Shown: piece by piece, positions 23,954-52,669 of the stretch | Numbering within the stretch: position 1 is the stretch's first letter | How the letters are laid out: each line of letters opens with the position of its first letter | NCBI GenBank assembly: GCA_029210325.1 | Contig: JARGPU010000001.1 | Coordinates: 506,126-570,125, forward strand | Source of the DNA: Alcanivoracaceae bacterium | Lineage (GTDB): Bacteria > Pseudomonadota > Gammaproteobacteria > Pseudomonadales > Alcanivoracaceae | Direction: 5' to 3' | DNA: 64,000 nucleotides | The notes under the pieces: model-generated | The model's input: the letters and a program-made list of their open reading frames with translations, nothing else | Database searches by the model: none | What the model was told of the DNA's origin: nothing | Made by a program: the position numbers and the translations under genes

Positions 23954-24084
23954 CAGATAATTTCCTTGAAAAACAGCTCTGGATTGTACCTGTGAACCCT
24001 GACTGGATGTCAGGCCTTGGTGCTATGGCCGCGGCCAGTGATGGGCGCTAACATGGGCTCAGGTACCGAGCTGCTATGCCTTCA

Positions 24085-24188
24085 CTGAGGCCCTAACCGG
24101 CCATCCGTATGGTGTTGCAGCCGTGGTCATTCTGGCCACCGGGTCGCAGGGGAAACGCTGCGGCCTCCCGCATTCGGAAAGGTGACCC
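24085..24188 (+). ncRNA. Molybdenum cofactor (Moco) riboswitch upstream of moaA
   Basis: The 3' half GGCCACCGGG (24134-24143), a GC-rich hairpin with a GGGGAAAC-type loop, CGGCCTCCCG (24161-24170) and GGAAAGGTG (24177-24184) closely match the E. coli moaA leader, where the Moco motif ends GCCUCCCGUAUCUGGAAAGGUG just before the start codon. The 5' part CGTATGGTGTTGCAGCCGTG also matches. The last segment contains the Shine-Dalgarno bases of moaA, so ligand binding would control translation. The 5' border is approximate. Confidence 0.85.
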
Positions 24189-25169
24189 ATGCTACAGGAC
24201 CGTTATGGCAGACGGTTCCGTTATCTGCGCCTGTCGGTAACGGATGTCTGTAATTTTCGCTGTACCTATTGTTTGCCGTCTGGCTATCAGGCGCCGGCGG
24301 GCGCTGTGCCTGACGGGTTTCTCGGGGCTGAAGAGATCGCCGTGATCGCAGCCGCCTTTGCTCGCTTGGGAACCAGCAAGATTCGCCTGACCGGTGGTGA
24401 GCCAGGTTTGCGCGCCGACCTGCCCGAGCTGATCCGTATCTGTAAGCAGACAGAAGGGATTAACACGGTGGCCTTGACCAGCAATGGCTATCGCTTGCCC
24501 AAGCAGATTCACGACTGGCATCAGGCCGGGCTGGATCGACTGAATGTCAGTATCGATTCACTGGATCGGCAGGAATTCGCCAGCATCACCGGCCATGACA
24601 AGTTGCCGACCATCCTTGATGGCCTGGATCAGGCGCTGTCGCTGGGCATGCAAGATATCAAGATCAATGCTGTGCTACTGCGCGATGGTTATGCCCAGCG
24701 CATGCAAAGTTTTCTTTCCTGGCTGCGCGACACTCCCGTCACTCTGCGTTTTATCGAATTGATGCAAACCGGTGACAACAGCGTGTTTTTCCGTGACCAG
24801 CATTTGCGCGGGCAAGAGATGTTGGCAATGTTGGTTGAGCAGGGCTGGCAGGAGACTGCCCGGGCACAGGATGCGGGGCCCGCCCGTGAGCTATGGCATC
24901 CGGACTACGCCGGGCGTATAGGTTTTATCATGCCCTACAGCAGTGACTTCTGCGCCAGTTGTAATCGCTTGCGGGTGTCAGCTCTGGGACGCCTTCATTT
25001 ATGTTTGTTCGCAGATCAGGGCCATGACATTCGCAGCTGGTGCCGCGATGGCGATGTCGAGGGGTTGATGCAGCATCTGCAGGATATGATCGGAGATAAA
25101 GGGGAAAGCCACCTGCTACAGCAGCAACACACCGGCGCGACCCGACATTTTGCCATGATTGGCGGTTGA
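24189..25169 (+). CDS. moaA: GTP 3',8-cyclase MoaA
   Basis: Radical-SAM enzyme for the first step of molybdenum-cofactor synthesis; 326 residues. The SAM cluster CX3CX2C is C21, C25 and C28 (CNFRCTYC). The second cluster lies in FCASCNRLRVSALGRLHLC (CX2CX13C). The C-terminus ends Gly-Gly, as needed for activity in known MoaA. It is led by a Moco riboswitch and followed by moaB 16 bp later. Confidence 0.97.
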   Translation: MLQDRYGRRFRYLRLSVTDVCNFRCTYCLPSGYQAPAGAVPDGFLGAEEIAVIAAAFARLGTSKIRLTGGEPGLRADLPELIRICKQTEGINTVALTSNGYRLPKQIHDWHQAGLDRLNVSIDSLDRQEFASITGHDKLPTILDGLDQALSLGMQDIKINAVLLRDGYAQRMQSFLSWLRDTPVTLRFIELMQTGDNSVFFRDQHLRGQEMLAMLVEQGWQETARAQDAGPARELWHPDYAGRIGFIMPYSSDFCASCNRLRVSALGRLHLCLFADQGHDIRSWCRDGDVEGLMQHLQDMIGDKGESHLLQQQHTGATRHFAMIGG

Positions 25170-49665: not shown

Positions 49666-51018
49666 TCAGTCTCGAGTGGCGATATCAATGCCTTCCATGG
49701 CCACTTTGGCCAGATGGTCAATCTGATCAGGAGTGATTACGTACGGCGGCATAAAGTAGGTAACGCTGCCGAGAGGTCGGAGCAGGGCCTGACGGGTCAG
49801 CGCGTGTTGATAGACACGCAGACCACGACGTTCGCGCCAGTCGTAGGGGGTGCGAGAGGCCTTATCGCGAACCATTTCCACAGCTGCAATCATGCCGGTT
49901 TGACGTACCTCTGCCACATGCGGATGGTCATTGAGAGGTTCCAGTGCGCGGGCCATATGCGCGGCCAGGGCGCGATTGTTTTCGATCACATTATCGGTGG
50001 CGAAGATGTCCATGGTGGCATTGGCGGCGGCGCAGGCCAGTGGGTTGCCGGTATAGCTGTGTGAGTGCAAAAAGGCGCGCAAGGTATCGTAATCGTCGTA
50101 AAACATCTGATAGATGTGGTCGCTGGTTAGCACTGCGCAAAGTGGTAGATAGCCGCCGGTGAGACCTTTTGACAGAGCCATAAAGTCCGGTGTGATGCCC
50201 GCCTGCTCGCAGGCAAACAGTGTGCCGGTGCGGCCAAATCCAACGGCAATTTCGTCAGCAATCAGATGGACGCCGTAGCGATCACAAGCTTCCCGTAACA
50301 GCTTTAGATAAACCGGATGGTACATGCGCATGTTGCCGGCACATTGAACCAGTGGCTCAACGATAACTGCGCAAATTTCTTCATGCTTTTCGGCGAGGAT
50401 TTTTTGCATGCCCTCAAACTGTCGGCGCGAGTACTGCTCCCAGCTTTCTCCAGACTCGCGGTGGTAGCAGTCCGGGCTCGGTGCGGTGAACACTTCCATT
50501 AACAGCGGCTTGTAGGTGTGCTTGTAAAGATCCACATCGCCAACAGCGAGGGCGGCAAGTGTTTCACCGTGATAGCTGTTGCCAAGAGTGACAAAGCGCC
50601 GCTTTTTCGGCTTGCCCGCATTCTGCCAGTAGTGAAAGCTCATTTTCAGTGCGACTTCGATACCAGAGGAACCGTTGTCGGCAAAAAAAACTCGGGATAG
50701 TCCCGGTGCAGTCAGGCCAACCAGCCTTTCTGCCAGCTCAATCACCGGCTCATGGCTAAAGCCCGCCAGAATGACATGCTCTAGTTTTTCCAGCTGATCG
50801 CGCACGGCGCTATTGATGCGCGGGTTGGCGTGGCCAAAAATGTTTACCCACCAGGAACTGACCGCATCGATATATCGATTGCCATCAAAGTCCTCCAGCC
50901 AAACTCCTTCACCGCGGCGGATTGGAATCACGGGCAGTGATTGGTGATCCTTCATTTGCGTGCAGGGATGCCAGAGCACCTCCAGGTCACGGTTCATCAG
51001 GGCTTGATTGCTGGACAT
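49666..51018 (-). CDS. bioA: Adenosylmethionine-8-amino-7-oxononanoate aminotransferase
   Basis: PLP enzyme making 7,8-diaminopelargonate for biotin; 450 residues. LWHPCTQMKDHQSLP and SSWWVNIFGHANPRIN are BioA hallmarks. The PLP lysine lies in FMALSKGLTGGYLPL, and VIVEPLVQ with ADEIAVGFGRTG holds the cofactor Asp. The other biotin genes are not here. I see no BirA-type palindromic operator in the upstream gap. Confidence 0.95.
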   Translation of the reverse strand: MSSNQALMNRDLEVLWHPCTQMKDHQSLPVIPIRRGEGVWLEDFDGNRYIDAVSSWWVNIFGHANPRINSAVRDQLEKLEHVILAGFSHEPVIELAERLVGLTAPGLSRVFFADNGSSGIEVALKMSFHYWQNAGKPKKRRFVTLGNSYHGETLAALAVGDVDLYKHTYKPLLMEVFTAPSPDCYHRESGESWEQYSRRQFEGMQKILAEKHEEICAVIVEPLVQCAGNMRMYHPVYLKLLREACDRYGVHLIADEIAVGFGRTGTLFACEQAGITPDFMALSKGLTGGYLPLCAVLTSDHIYQMFYDDYDTLRAFLHSHSYTGNPLACAAANATMDIFATDNVIENNRALAAHMARALEPLNDHPHVAEVRQTGMIAAVEMVRDKASRTPYDWRERRGLRVYQHALTRQALLRPLGSVTYFMPPYVITPDQIDHLAKVAMEGIDIATRD

Positions 51019-51099
51019 GATTACTCCACAGGTTGCGCCCGATGATGATACGGGTCCGACGGTCGCGCCGCAAAAGAGTAGATGAGCTGGCAGCAGGCC

Positions 51100-51135
51100 A
51101 AAAAAAACCGACGGTATCAGGGGGGATGCCGTCGG
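51100..51135 (-). terminator. Intrinsic terminator (minus strand)
   Basis: An 11-bp stem (51125-51135 with 51108-51118, one wobble) with a CCCCCT loop is followed on the minus strand by eight Ts (complement of the A-run 51100-51107). It lies 148 nt downstream of the SRPBCC-SDR stop and 82 nt upstream of bioA, and would close either the SDR transcript or a separate small RNA. Confidence 0.9.
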
Positions 51136-51213
51136 CTAAGTGTTGCCTTATGCGAAGCGGCACTAAGTCGGGGGGACAGGAGGCCGGTTGGGGGACCGGC
51201 GTGCCGCTTCACA
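51100..51213 (-). ncRNA. Candidate small RNA with C-rich loops (unproven)
   Basis: On the minus strand a 10-bp stem (51201-51210 with 51154-51163) encloses a 6-bp hairpin (51195-51200 with 51183-51188) with loop CCCCCA. A single-stranded CCTCCTGTCCCCCCGAC follows, and then the terminator hairpin with loop CCCCCT. A weak -10-like TATGGT (51216-51221) and -35-like TTGCTG (51241-51246, 19-bp spacer) would start transcription at the base of the first stem. It could instead be the 3' untranslated part of the SDR mRNA or an IS remnant. Confidence 0.35.
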
Positions 51214-51283
51214 AAACCATATTGGCAAATGGCTCGTGAACAGCAAGTGACGGCATCGCCCGGTATAACCAGAGCGGGAATGC

Positions 51284-52669
51284 TCAGGTGTTGTTTGCCA
51301 GCCATTGCAGTAGCTCGGCCTGCTGAGCTGCACTCACTGCTGTGCCCGGTAACAGCGCCGTGGGACGCGGCTGGCGGTCGAACCAGAACTTGCCGCTGTG
51401 ACTAAGCGGCGCCTCGCTGCTGGCCAGCCATACCATGGTGTCTGCCCCCATGCGGGCGTCGCGTAGCCAACGCTGCATGCGTCGGTTGAAGGCGGGCAGC
51501 GATTTTTCCACGCCCGGGGTGGCGGCCCAGCCGGGGTGCATGCTGCTGAAGAAGATTTCGGGATGCTGCTGCGCCCAGTGTTCAGTGACGCTCACCAGCG
51601 CCCGCTTTGCCCGAGCGTATGCTTTACTGCCATCGTAGGGCTCGTTAAGGAACTGCATATCATCCAGTTTCAGTGGCTGCAGATACATGCCACCACTGGA
51701 GACGTTGATGACTCGGCCGCGGGCCTCAGCAAGCGATGGCAGCAATAGATCAGTCAGCAGCCACGGACACAGCAGATTGATCGCCAGCGCCCGTTCATGG
51801 CCGTCTGCGCTGGTGCCGTGCTCGGCAAATAGTGCGCCAGCATTATTGATAAGCACATCGATTCGCGGATAGAGCCGGGCCAGCTCTGCGCCGGCCCGCT
51901 TAACCTCGCTGAGCGATGATAGTTCGGCTTCGAAGGTAGCAACTTGCTCGTGGCTGGCTCCACTGAAATTGCGTACCGACTTTGCCGCCCGGGCGAGTTT
52001 CAGCGAGTCACGGCCCACCAGAACAACAGCGGCACCCAGTCTGGACAGCTCGCATGCGGCGGCCAGACCGAGGCCGGCAGTGGCGCCGGTAATCACCATC
52101 CGCTGGCCATCCAGATAGTCTGGTAACCCCTTGTTTTTCATCCCCAGATAGCCGCGTTCGGTAAATCCGAGCGCGGCCGGTAGCAGCAGTCTCTGAGCAA
52201 CTCGCTCAGCCAGTCCGGGATACTGCACCTCGGTCTGCGGAGTAAGCGCCTGCTGCAAACCGGCCACTGCGCGTTTTCCCATACGCACCATCAGCGGGTT
52301 CATCAGCTTTTCAACGTGACTGGCTGGCCCCTGAAAGCGCAGTTCCGCGTGATATTGAATTTCCGTGGACTGCGGGCCTAGCGGGCGCAAGCGGATCACA
52401 TCATGGGCGCTGAAGCCGTTGCCCTGACCCTGCAGATCTATGCGTCGTGGCGCGTCCAGCGCGGTCACGGTGTAGCGCATCGGAATACGTCGCCCGGCGC
52501 TATTCAGGATCAGATCGAATTCGCTACCCGCCCTCGGCTCGCCTGCAGTCAGCTTGGTTGCCCGGTAGACACCGGGATCCCACTGCTCGCTGGTGGAAAA
52601 GTCCGCCAGATAGCGAAAGCAGTCGCCGACGGAACGGGGAACCCTGATTGTTTCCTGCAGAGAAATCAT
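51284..52669 (-). CDS. SRPBCC domain fused to short-chain dehydrogenase (DHRS12-like)
   Basis: A 461-residue two-domain protein. Residues 1-150 form a START/SRPBCC polyketide-cyclase-like ligand-binding fold (RVPRSVGDCFRYLADFSTSEQWDPGV, then RYTVTALDAPRRIDLQG). Residues 190-460 form an SDR with VITGATAGLGLAAA, INNAG and YARAK as the catalytic YXXXK. The SDR half resembles retinol-dehydrogenase/DHRS12 proteins; the N-terminal domain would bind a hydrophobic substrate. It is divergent from the heme operon across the Fur-box region. Confidence 0.85.
   Translation of the reverse strand: MISLQETIRVPRSVGDCFRYLADFSTSEQWDPGVYRATKLTAGEPRAGSEFDLILNSAGRRIPMRYTVTALDAPRRIDLQGQGNGFSAHDVIRLRPLGPQSTEIQYHAELRFQGPASHVEKLMNPLMVRMGKRAVAGLQQALTPQTEVQYPGLAERVAQRLLLPAALGFTERGYLGMKNKGLPDYLDGQRMVITGATAGLGLAAACELSRLGAAVVLVGRDSLKLARAAKSVRNFSGASHEQVATFEAELSSLSEVKRAGAELARLYPRIDVLINNAGALFAEHGTSADGHERALAINLLCPWLLTDLLLPSLAEARGRVINVSSGGMYLQPLKLDDMQFLNEPYDGSKAYARAKRALVSVTEHWAQQHPEIFFSSMHPGWAATPGVEKSLPAFNRRMQRWLRDARMGADTMVWLASSEAPLSHSGKFWFDRQPRPTALLPGTAVSAAQQAELLQWLANNT

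Follow-up and report, generated by a model that had tools for sequence, protein, structure and literature searches.

The window (the whole 64,000-nucleotide stretch of DNA that was analysed) carries on its minus strand a compact folded unit of 113 bases, read from 51212 down to 51100, between the gene of an SRPBCC-SDR fusion protein and bioA, the latter name being taken from the preliminary description of this DNA. All three are read in the same direction, the SDR gene lying 71 nt before the unit and bioA starting 81 nt downstream of the unit's terminator. The features of the locus, with their state in the relative Alcanivorax sp. 1008, are as follows.

51284..52669, minus strand: upstream gene, SRPBCC-SDR fusion protein (PF10604 and PF00106)
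51236..51252, minus strand: conserved upstream block CGTCACTTGCTGTTCAC (alignment form CGTCACTnnCTGTTCAC), possible -35 or activator region; 15 of 17 positions identical, no promoter reported by the scan
51213..51223, minus strand: conserved upstream block AATATGGTTTT (alignment form AAnATGGTTTT), possible -10 region; 10 of 11 positions identical
51100..51212, minus strand: the unit as a whole, a candidate sRNA (about 113 nt), judged by its fold and by its syntenic, conserved counterpart in Alcanivorax sp. 1008 (L034, 4476-4588)
51201..51212, minus strand: 5' arm of the outer stem, pairing with 51152-51163; 12 pairs formed in both species, U-G in the window being C-G in the relative
51152..51163, minus strand: 3' arm of the outer stem, from the predicted fold
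51183..51200, minus strand: hairpin 1, 6 bp, loop CCCCCA at 51189-51194; U-A in the window is U-G in the relative, C-run the same
51178..51183, minus strand: CCTCCT segment, not conserved (CCTGCT in Alcanivorax sp. 1008)
51167..51177, minus strand: mini-hairpin GUC-CCCCC-GAC, with a C6 run at 51170-51175; no difference between the two species
51108..51135, minus strand: terminator stem-loop, loop CCCCCT at 51119-51124, C6 run at 51120-51125, from predicted fold and comparison
51100..51107, minus strand: T8 tail of the terminator, present in both species
51045..51073, minus strand: weak promoter-like element TTGCGG-17-TATCAT before bioA, beyond the unit's terminator, found by eye and unreported by the scan; hexamers and spacing kept in Alcanivorax sp. 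1008
49666..51018, minus strand: bioA (PF00202)

Calculated for 121 nt, the fold has a minimum free energy of -58.2 kcal/mol, whereas shuffled sequences average -31.9 (sd 3.37); this corresponds to a z-score of -7.8, and none of 200 shuffles folds as well; the compact minus-strand fold that had been proposed for the SDR-bioA gap is borne out. The raw folding energy is less unusual because the region is GC-rich: of 6390 segments of 113 nt, taken every 20 nt on both strands and in part overlapping the unit, 55 are at least as stable. The 6-bp hairpin with loop CCCCCA inside the outer stem and the terminator with loop CCCCCT followed by T8 are recovered in the sequence and the predicted fold as the preliminary description gave them; the outer stem, presented there as a perfect 10-bp helix, is really 12 bp long and includes one U-G pair. 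A linker of 16 nt separates it from the terminator, whose stem consists of 7 bp, one mismatch and 3 bp. The segments CCTCCT and CCCCCC, thought to be unpaired, are both present, the former with one C overlapping the last pair of hairpin 1 and the rest as described, the latter flanked by a possible weak 3-bp GUC/GAC mini-hairpin, so that all three C-runs can be loops. The exposure of several C-runs in the loops of a stable fold, a feature of the class of C-rich-loop sRNAs, is thereby predicted for the unit, which is the sole place in the 64 kb, on either strand, where three runs of at least five C fall within 113 nt. A G-quadruplex or i-motif was set aside, because the hairpins would use the same bases.

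Alcanivorax is a genus of oil degraders that are harmless to work with in the laboratory. In Alcanivorax sp. 1008 (G001; NZ_JAFMPS010000002.1, L034), the one informative relative, so that all evolutionary comparison is between two sequences, the unit lies between the same two genes at 92.0% identity. This compares with 71.8% for the upstream gap, 79.0% for the downstream gap, 78.6% for the SDR gene (58.0% at third codon positions) and 90.7% for bioA (75.2% at third positions), and the excess of the unit is significant against the gaps (Fisher p 0.0005) and against the SDR gene (0.0004). Stretches of bioA are nevertheless equally conserved: along the SDR-unit-bioA region, 375 of 2892 segments of 113 nt are as identical as the unit, and the first 200 of these 375 all map to the unit itself, to bioA or to the bioA leader. 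Nine bases differ within the unit, which shows no insertion or deletion between the two species. Seven fall at unpaired positions and two in stems (UG against CG, UA against UG), both of the latter keeping the pair, and none falls in the three C-runs; the chance of at most two paired changes among nine is 0.044, and the chance that the seven unpaired changes spare the C-runs is 0.037 (T8 left out). The corresponding 113 nt of the relative adopt a like fold (z -7.2, none of 200 shuffles as good), in which 31 of 31 pairs form as they do in the window, so that the stems, whose loss in relatives had been named as what would speak against the unit, are kept. Compensatory base changes had been suggested as a check, and here the outcome is divided: both stem changes preserve pairing, but with two sequences compared and no double compensatory change among them, strict covariation is not demonstrated. 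The conservation of C-runs, another feature of C-rich-loop sRNAs, is likewise seen in two species only. Taken together, the fold, the conservation, the pair-keeping changes and the C-runs and T8 kept in two species support a structured non-coding RNA unit.

The sequences upstream of the unit bear on how such an RNA might be made. The preliminary description had placed a weak promoter at the base of the stem. The promoter scan of 50500-51800 reports none, and neither of the two conserved upstream blocks is a good sigma-70 hexamer, but their two-block pattern looks promoter-like, or like a promoter with an activator site. The blocks are separated by a 12-bp spacer of equal length in both species, of which 3 of 12 positions are identical (48 upstream bases aligned); overall, identity over the 33 bp adjoining the unit (72.7%) hardly differs from that in the remainder of the upstream gap (71.1%). 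Just upstream of the unit, Alcanivorax sp. 1008 also carries a perfect palindrome, CATGTTC-GA-GAACATG (L002, 1491-1506), which is absent from the window; it spans the diverged spacer and the possible -10 block and is perhaps an operator. No minus-strand terminator is reported between the SDR stop codon and the unit in the scan of 50500-51800, so the SDR mRNA should run through and end at the unit's terminator, and the SDR transcript could be the source of the RNA. A tRNA search of 50500-51700 with ARAGORN found none.

The distribution of the unit is narrow. It occurs once in its own genome by blastn, which among 57 genomes finds it in two, its own and that of Alcanivorax sp. 1008 (92%). A covariance model of the unit, R1, was used for homologue searches. 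Among 390 genomes drawn from the order it matches only the own genome, the draw having evidently missed that of Alcanivorax sp. 1008; with laxer filters, in 39 of the 46 genomes of the family, Alcanivorax sp. 1008 provides the only convincing match. Nine distant matches in the family, with E from 0.036 to 0.99, were not counted as homologues, each being a fragment, a terminator on its own or a fold of doubtful quality. Among 369 genomes of the class, R1 matches the own genome and two others (E 0.006 per genome), one with broken stems and the other with the outer stem and terminator only, which is chance level in 369 genomes, and both were rejected. Thirty loci of SDR relatives were collected in all, and at the 29 besides L034, 28 of them with enough downstream DNA, R1 gives no credible match; the downstream DNA of ten of the 29 was also inspected directly. 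One of the nine distant matches in the family (G031; L065, 1501-1565) is a lone terminator with a UCCCCC loop and T8, right after an SDR-type gene, that resembles the terminator of the unit. Nor does R1 find the unit anywhere in the ten other-genus genomes with the closest bioA (L005-L014), in seven of which the upstream side of bioA was inspected directly. Two cases are uninformative: L035, the remaining one of the 29 SDR loci, has a contig that stops within the SDR gene, and the genome G002, 64% complete, offers distant bioA matches only. The covariance search called for by the preliminary description thus recovers the folded unit in Alcanivorax sp. 1008 and nowhere convincingly outside the genus, and as far as seen the unit appears restricted to one genus, in 2 genomes.

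The earlier remark that no family is recognised holds against Rfam, in which no family reaches its gathering score for the unit; the best sub-threshold match by E-value is tfoR, with 18.3 bits against a cut-off of 70. Elsewhere in the window Rfam identifies a molybdenum cofactor riboswitch (RF01055, 72.8 bits; 24052-24200, plus strand), which overlaps by 12 bases the start, at 24189, of an ORF that we take to be moaA-like.

Several known RNAs share the layout of the unit. sX13 of Xanthomonas is described as an intergenic, strongly structured RNA of 115 nt whose three apical loops are C-rich (4-5 C, with UCCCCCU in one case); it represses mRNAs with G-rich motifs near the start codon and is Hfq-independent (PMC3771888). 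On that description, the unit is like sX13 (RF02232) in size, intergenic site, strong structure and the number of C-rich loops, and differs in architecture, since sX13 consists of three separate stem-loops and lies beside polA, whereas the unit has a hairpin and a mini-hairpin inside an outer stem plus the loop of the terminator, and has the SRPBCC-SDR gene and bioA for neighbours. For RepG (HPnc5490) of Helicobacter pylori, the relevant text describes pairing between a homopolymeric G-repeat and a terminator loop rich in C and U (PMC8295292). The unit also has a C/U-rich terminator loop, CCCCCT in a 10-bp terminator; for RepG that text describes one C-rich pairing loop, and its host and locus are unrelated to those of the unit. 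NfeR1, or alpha-r14, of rhizobia is described in the part of the source that concerns it as an Hfq-independent RNA with many predicted targets, whose three hairpins expose in their unpaired regions three C-rich anti-SD motifs that are redundant with one another (PMC10746234). The motif of that family (RF02344), CCUCCUCCC, is given there as ultraconserved, whereas the unit has a single CCTCCT, which is not conserved, and so does not show three CCUCCUCCC motifs. The 6C RNA (RF01066) resembles the unit through the hairpins with C6 loops of its Rfam consensus. At E up to 5, the unit has no Rfam match to sX13, a family that is present in the library, to ar14 or to 6C.

The unit appears to have company in the genus. 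Seven candidate sites were folded, and a second own-genome terminator with a C-run as its loop was found at L086, around 1480-1529. It belongs to an element of about 135 nt outside the window (L086, 1395-1529, plus strand; G000:C13) which folds into three hairpins with C-rich loops, AACCCCCGAUCCCCCGAUCCC, UUCCCCCA and that of the terminator (z -5.7, none of 200 shuffles as good), and of which 129 of 135 bases are the same in Alcanivorax sp. 1008 (L229). The tops of the two terminators are alike, AUC-CCCCCC-GAU in the second element and AUC-CCCCCU-GAU in the unit; this is the only clear likeness, and R1 scores the second element at 20.7 and 18.4 bits, the level of other doubtful matches. Its Rfam matches, all below cut-off, are to 6C (29.8 against 47 bits), ar14 (28.0 against 58.8 bits), Pseudomon-1/ErsA, sX11, sX13 and ar7; the 6C match is one that the unit lacks. 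The element lies between genes of mnhG type and engB type (NCBIfam: Na+/H+ antiporter subunit G; ribosome biogenesis GTP-binding protein YihA/YsxC), and in other gammaproteobacteria Spot 42 and ErsA are found near engB. In A. dieselolei B-5, sRNA4758272 was detected by RNA-seq between engB-type and antiporter-G genes and is described in that section as highly conserved in Alcanivorax, with two copies in some species (PMC9788540, section 2.8). The second element sits at the same-named gene pair, a likeness of locus and gene names, and the unit itself occupies a different locus. A third, weaker sRNA-like element of about 92 nt is present in Alcanivorax sp. 1008 (L074, 520-612, minus strand; G001:C71:3821-3909), where a GC hairpin is followed by a terminator with C7 in its loop and then by T8 (z -3.3, 1 of 200 shuffles as good); it was not found in the own genome, in which the best blastn match has an E of 0.37. 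The occurrence of a second C-loop element at the counterpart of an A. dieselolei sRNA locus raised our confidence in the sRNA reading from even to slightly above.

The evidence must be weighed against other explanations of the same fold. The unit could be the mere 3' end of the SDR mRNA, that is, a terminator and a hairpin stabilising the message against 3' exonucleases, with no role in trans. This explanation, which we regard as rather unlikely, draws on the shared strand, the 71-nt distance, the read-through expected from the SDR gene and the lack of a reported promoter, and the lone UCCCCC-loop terminator directly after the SDR-type gene of G031 also speaks for it. A protective hairpin, however, needs a stem and no fixed sequence, and here the C-runs are kept too; moreover, conservation is higher in the unit (92.0%) than in the SDR gene that it would serve (78.6%), and the unit accompanies the SDR gene at none of the 29 other loci, 28 of which extend far enough downstream. 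A leader of bioA, in which the terminator of a riboswitch or attenuator would decide on bioA transcription, is improbable. The terminator does precede bioA on the same strand, and another CCGTCGG, noticed by eye some 40 nt before bioA, could pair with the terminator's 5' arm, but that copy is absent in Alcanivorax sp. 1008, Rfam shows no riboswitch at the unit, and R1 finds no unit in the ten other-genus genomes with the closest bioA. The weak promoter-like element kept in both species between the terminator and bioA also counts against a leader.

Two remaining explanations change the nature of the element altogether. A functional RNA on the plus strand would read the C-runs as GGGGGA/GGA in loops, in the manner of CsrA-binding sponge RNAs; plus-strand loops do contain GGA, and there too the palindromic stem has a weak score, with E 0.083 for L034 and 2.3 for the window, but the T-run terminator exists on the minus strand only and the lone ACAGGA-like site, antisense of CCTCCTGT, is lost in Alcanivorax sp. 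1008, so we consider it very improbable. We give an equally small chance to a gene for a small protein or a DNA element such as a protein-binding palindrome or a mobile repeat. Short ORFs cross the unit in both species, which differ by no insertion or deletion; the changes nevertheless follow the pairing, those ORFs that terminate within the unit are unlike each other further upstream, and blastn finds one match in the own genome.

The explanation we favour, with a confidence a little better than even, is that the unit is an sRNA of about 113 nt that acts through pairing of its C-loops with G-runs at ribosome-binding sites, and that either has a weak promoter of its own or is released when the SDR mRNA is trimmed at its 3' end. 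In this model, the RNA would exist as a separate transcript ending at the rho-independent terminator, its 5' end arising in one or the other of these two ways. The rigid stems would present three runs of C5-C6 as loops that pair with G-runs in or close to the ribosome-binding sites of several mRNAs, whose translation would thereby be blocked; the genus would possess at least two C-loop RNAs, the unit among them. We infer this action from the layout common with sX13, RepG and NfeR1 together with the preservation of stems and C-runs. The preliminary description had pointed to anti-Shine-Dalgarno pairing, and this idea survives in altered form: in Alcanivorax sp. 1008 the C5-C6 runs persist but CCUCCU is changed to CCUGCU, which argues for G-run seeds as the likelier partners and against a pure anti-SD seed.

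A search for such partners gave candidates at the level of chance. In the own genome the pattern GGGGGGAN{2,11}ATG occurs 18 times and its reverse 13 times; in Alcanivorax sp. 1008 the counts are 25 and 14. The pattern GGGGGGN{2,30}ATG occurs 168 and 270 times, respectively, and its reverse 102 and 156 times, but reversal makes a poor control, since ATG and GTA need not be equally frequent. Eleven of the 168 own-genome sites were inspected closely, and most of their ATGs open no gene. Complementarity of at least 11 nt, which 3.6% of 3000 random GGGGGGA flanks reach, was seen at 1 of 15 sites in each genome, in the same gene (15 of the 18 own sites and 15 of the 25 of Alcanivorax sp. 1008 being included), and is within chance expectation in both. 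RNAduplex energies, which ignore accessibility, were dropped as evidence on targets. The sequence AGGGGGGAT is found 4 times in the own genome, where the control gives 0, and 5 times in Alcanivorax sp. 1008, where it gives 3, one occurrence in each being the unit itself; the lone orthologous pair (L121, L118) was rejected, as it lies within a long open frame. The candidate targets are these.

Thioesterase-like gene (PF13279): ATCAGGGGGGA at the ribosome-binding site, at the same position in the two species (L192, L177); complementarity of 11 nt to the region of the terminator loop
TonB-dependent receptor (PF07715): GGGGGGATGC (L182), 10 nt, with an identical match string in Alcanivorax sp. 1008
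423-aa protein with no Pfam match: GGGGGGAAACCATG in both species (L178, L189)
408-aa signal-peptide-like protein: G7 tract at codons 8-10 in both species (L117, 1510-1516, G000:C12; L116, G001:C49)

The G7 tract of the last gene is possibly slippery or phase-variable. A further candidate, which we presume to be a bfd-like gene, carries CGGGGGGAC at its ribosome-binding site in the own genome but only GGGG in Alcanivorax sp. 1008, and none of the 26 leaders of this gene located in other genera has a G-run there.

In conclusion, our observations indicate that the RNA unit is real and constrained and that its style is a known one. It is most likely an sRNA confined to the genus, which would have two or three C-loop RNAs in all. 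A bolder extension, which we put forward tentatively and hold to be unlikely as it stands, is that the genus has a small set of C-loop RNAs, comprising the unit, the mnhG-engB element and the third element of Alcanivorax sp. 1008, which would read G6-G7 tracts at translation starts and form an independent version of the mechanism known from sX13, RepG and NfeR1, with siblings at separate loci. If the unit is expressed, distant bacteria would share a design in which rigid stems offer C-runs to G-rich ribosome-binding sites, and two or three such RNAs in one genus would give sRNA4758272, detected but so far unexplained, a testable mode of action.
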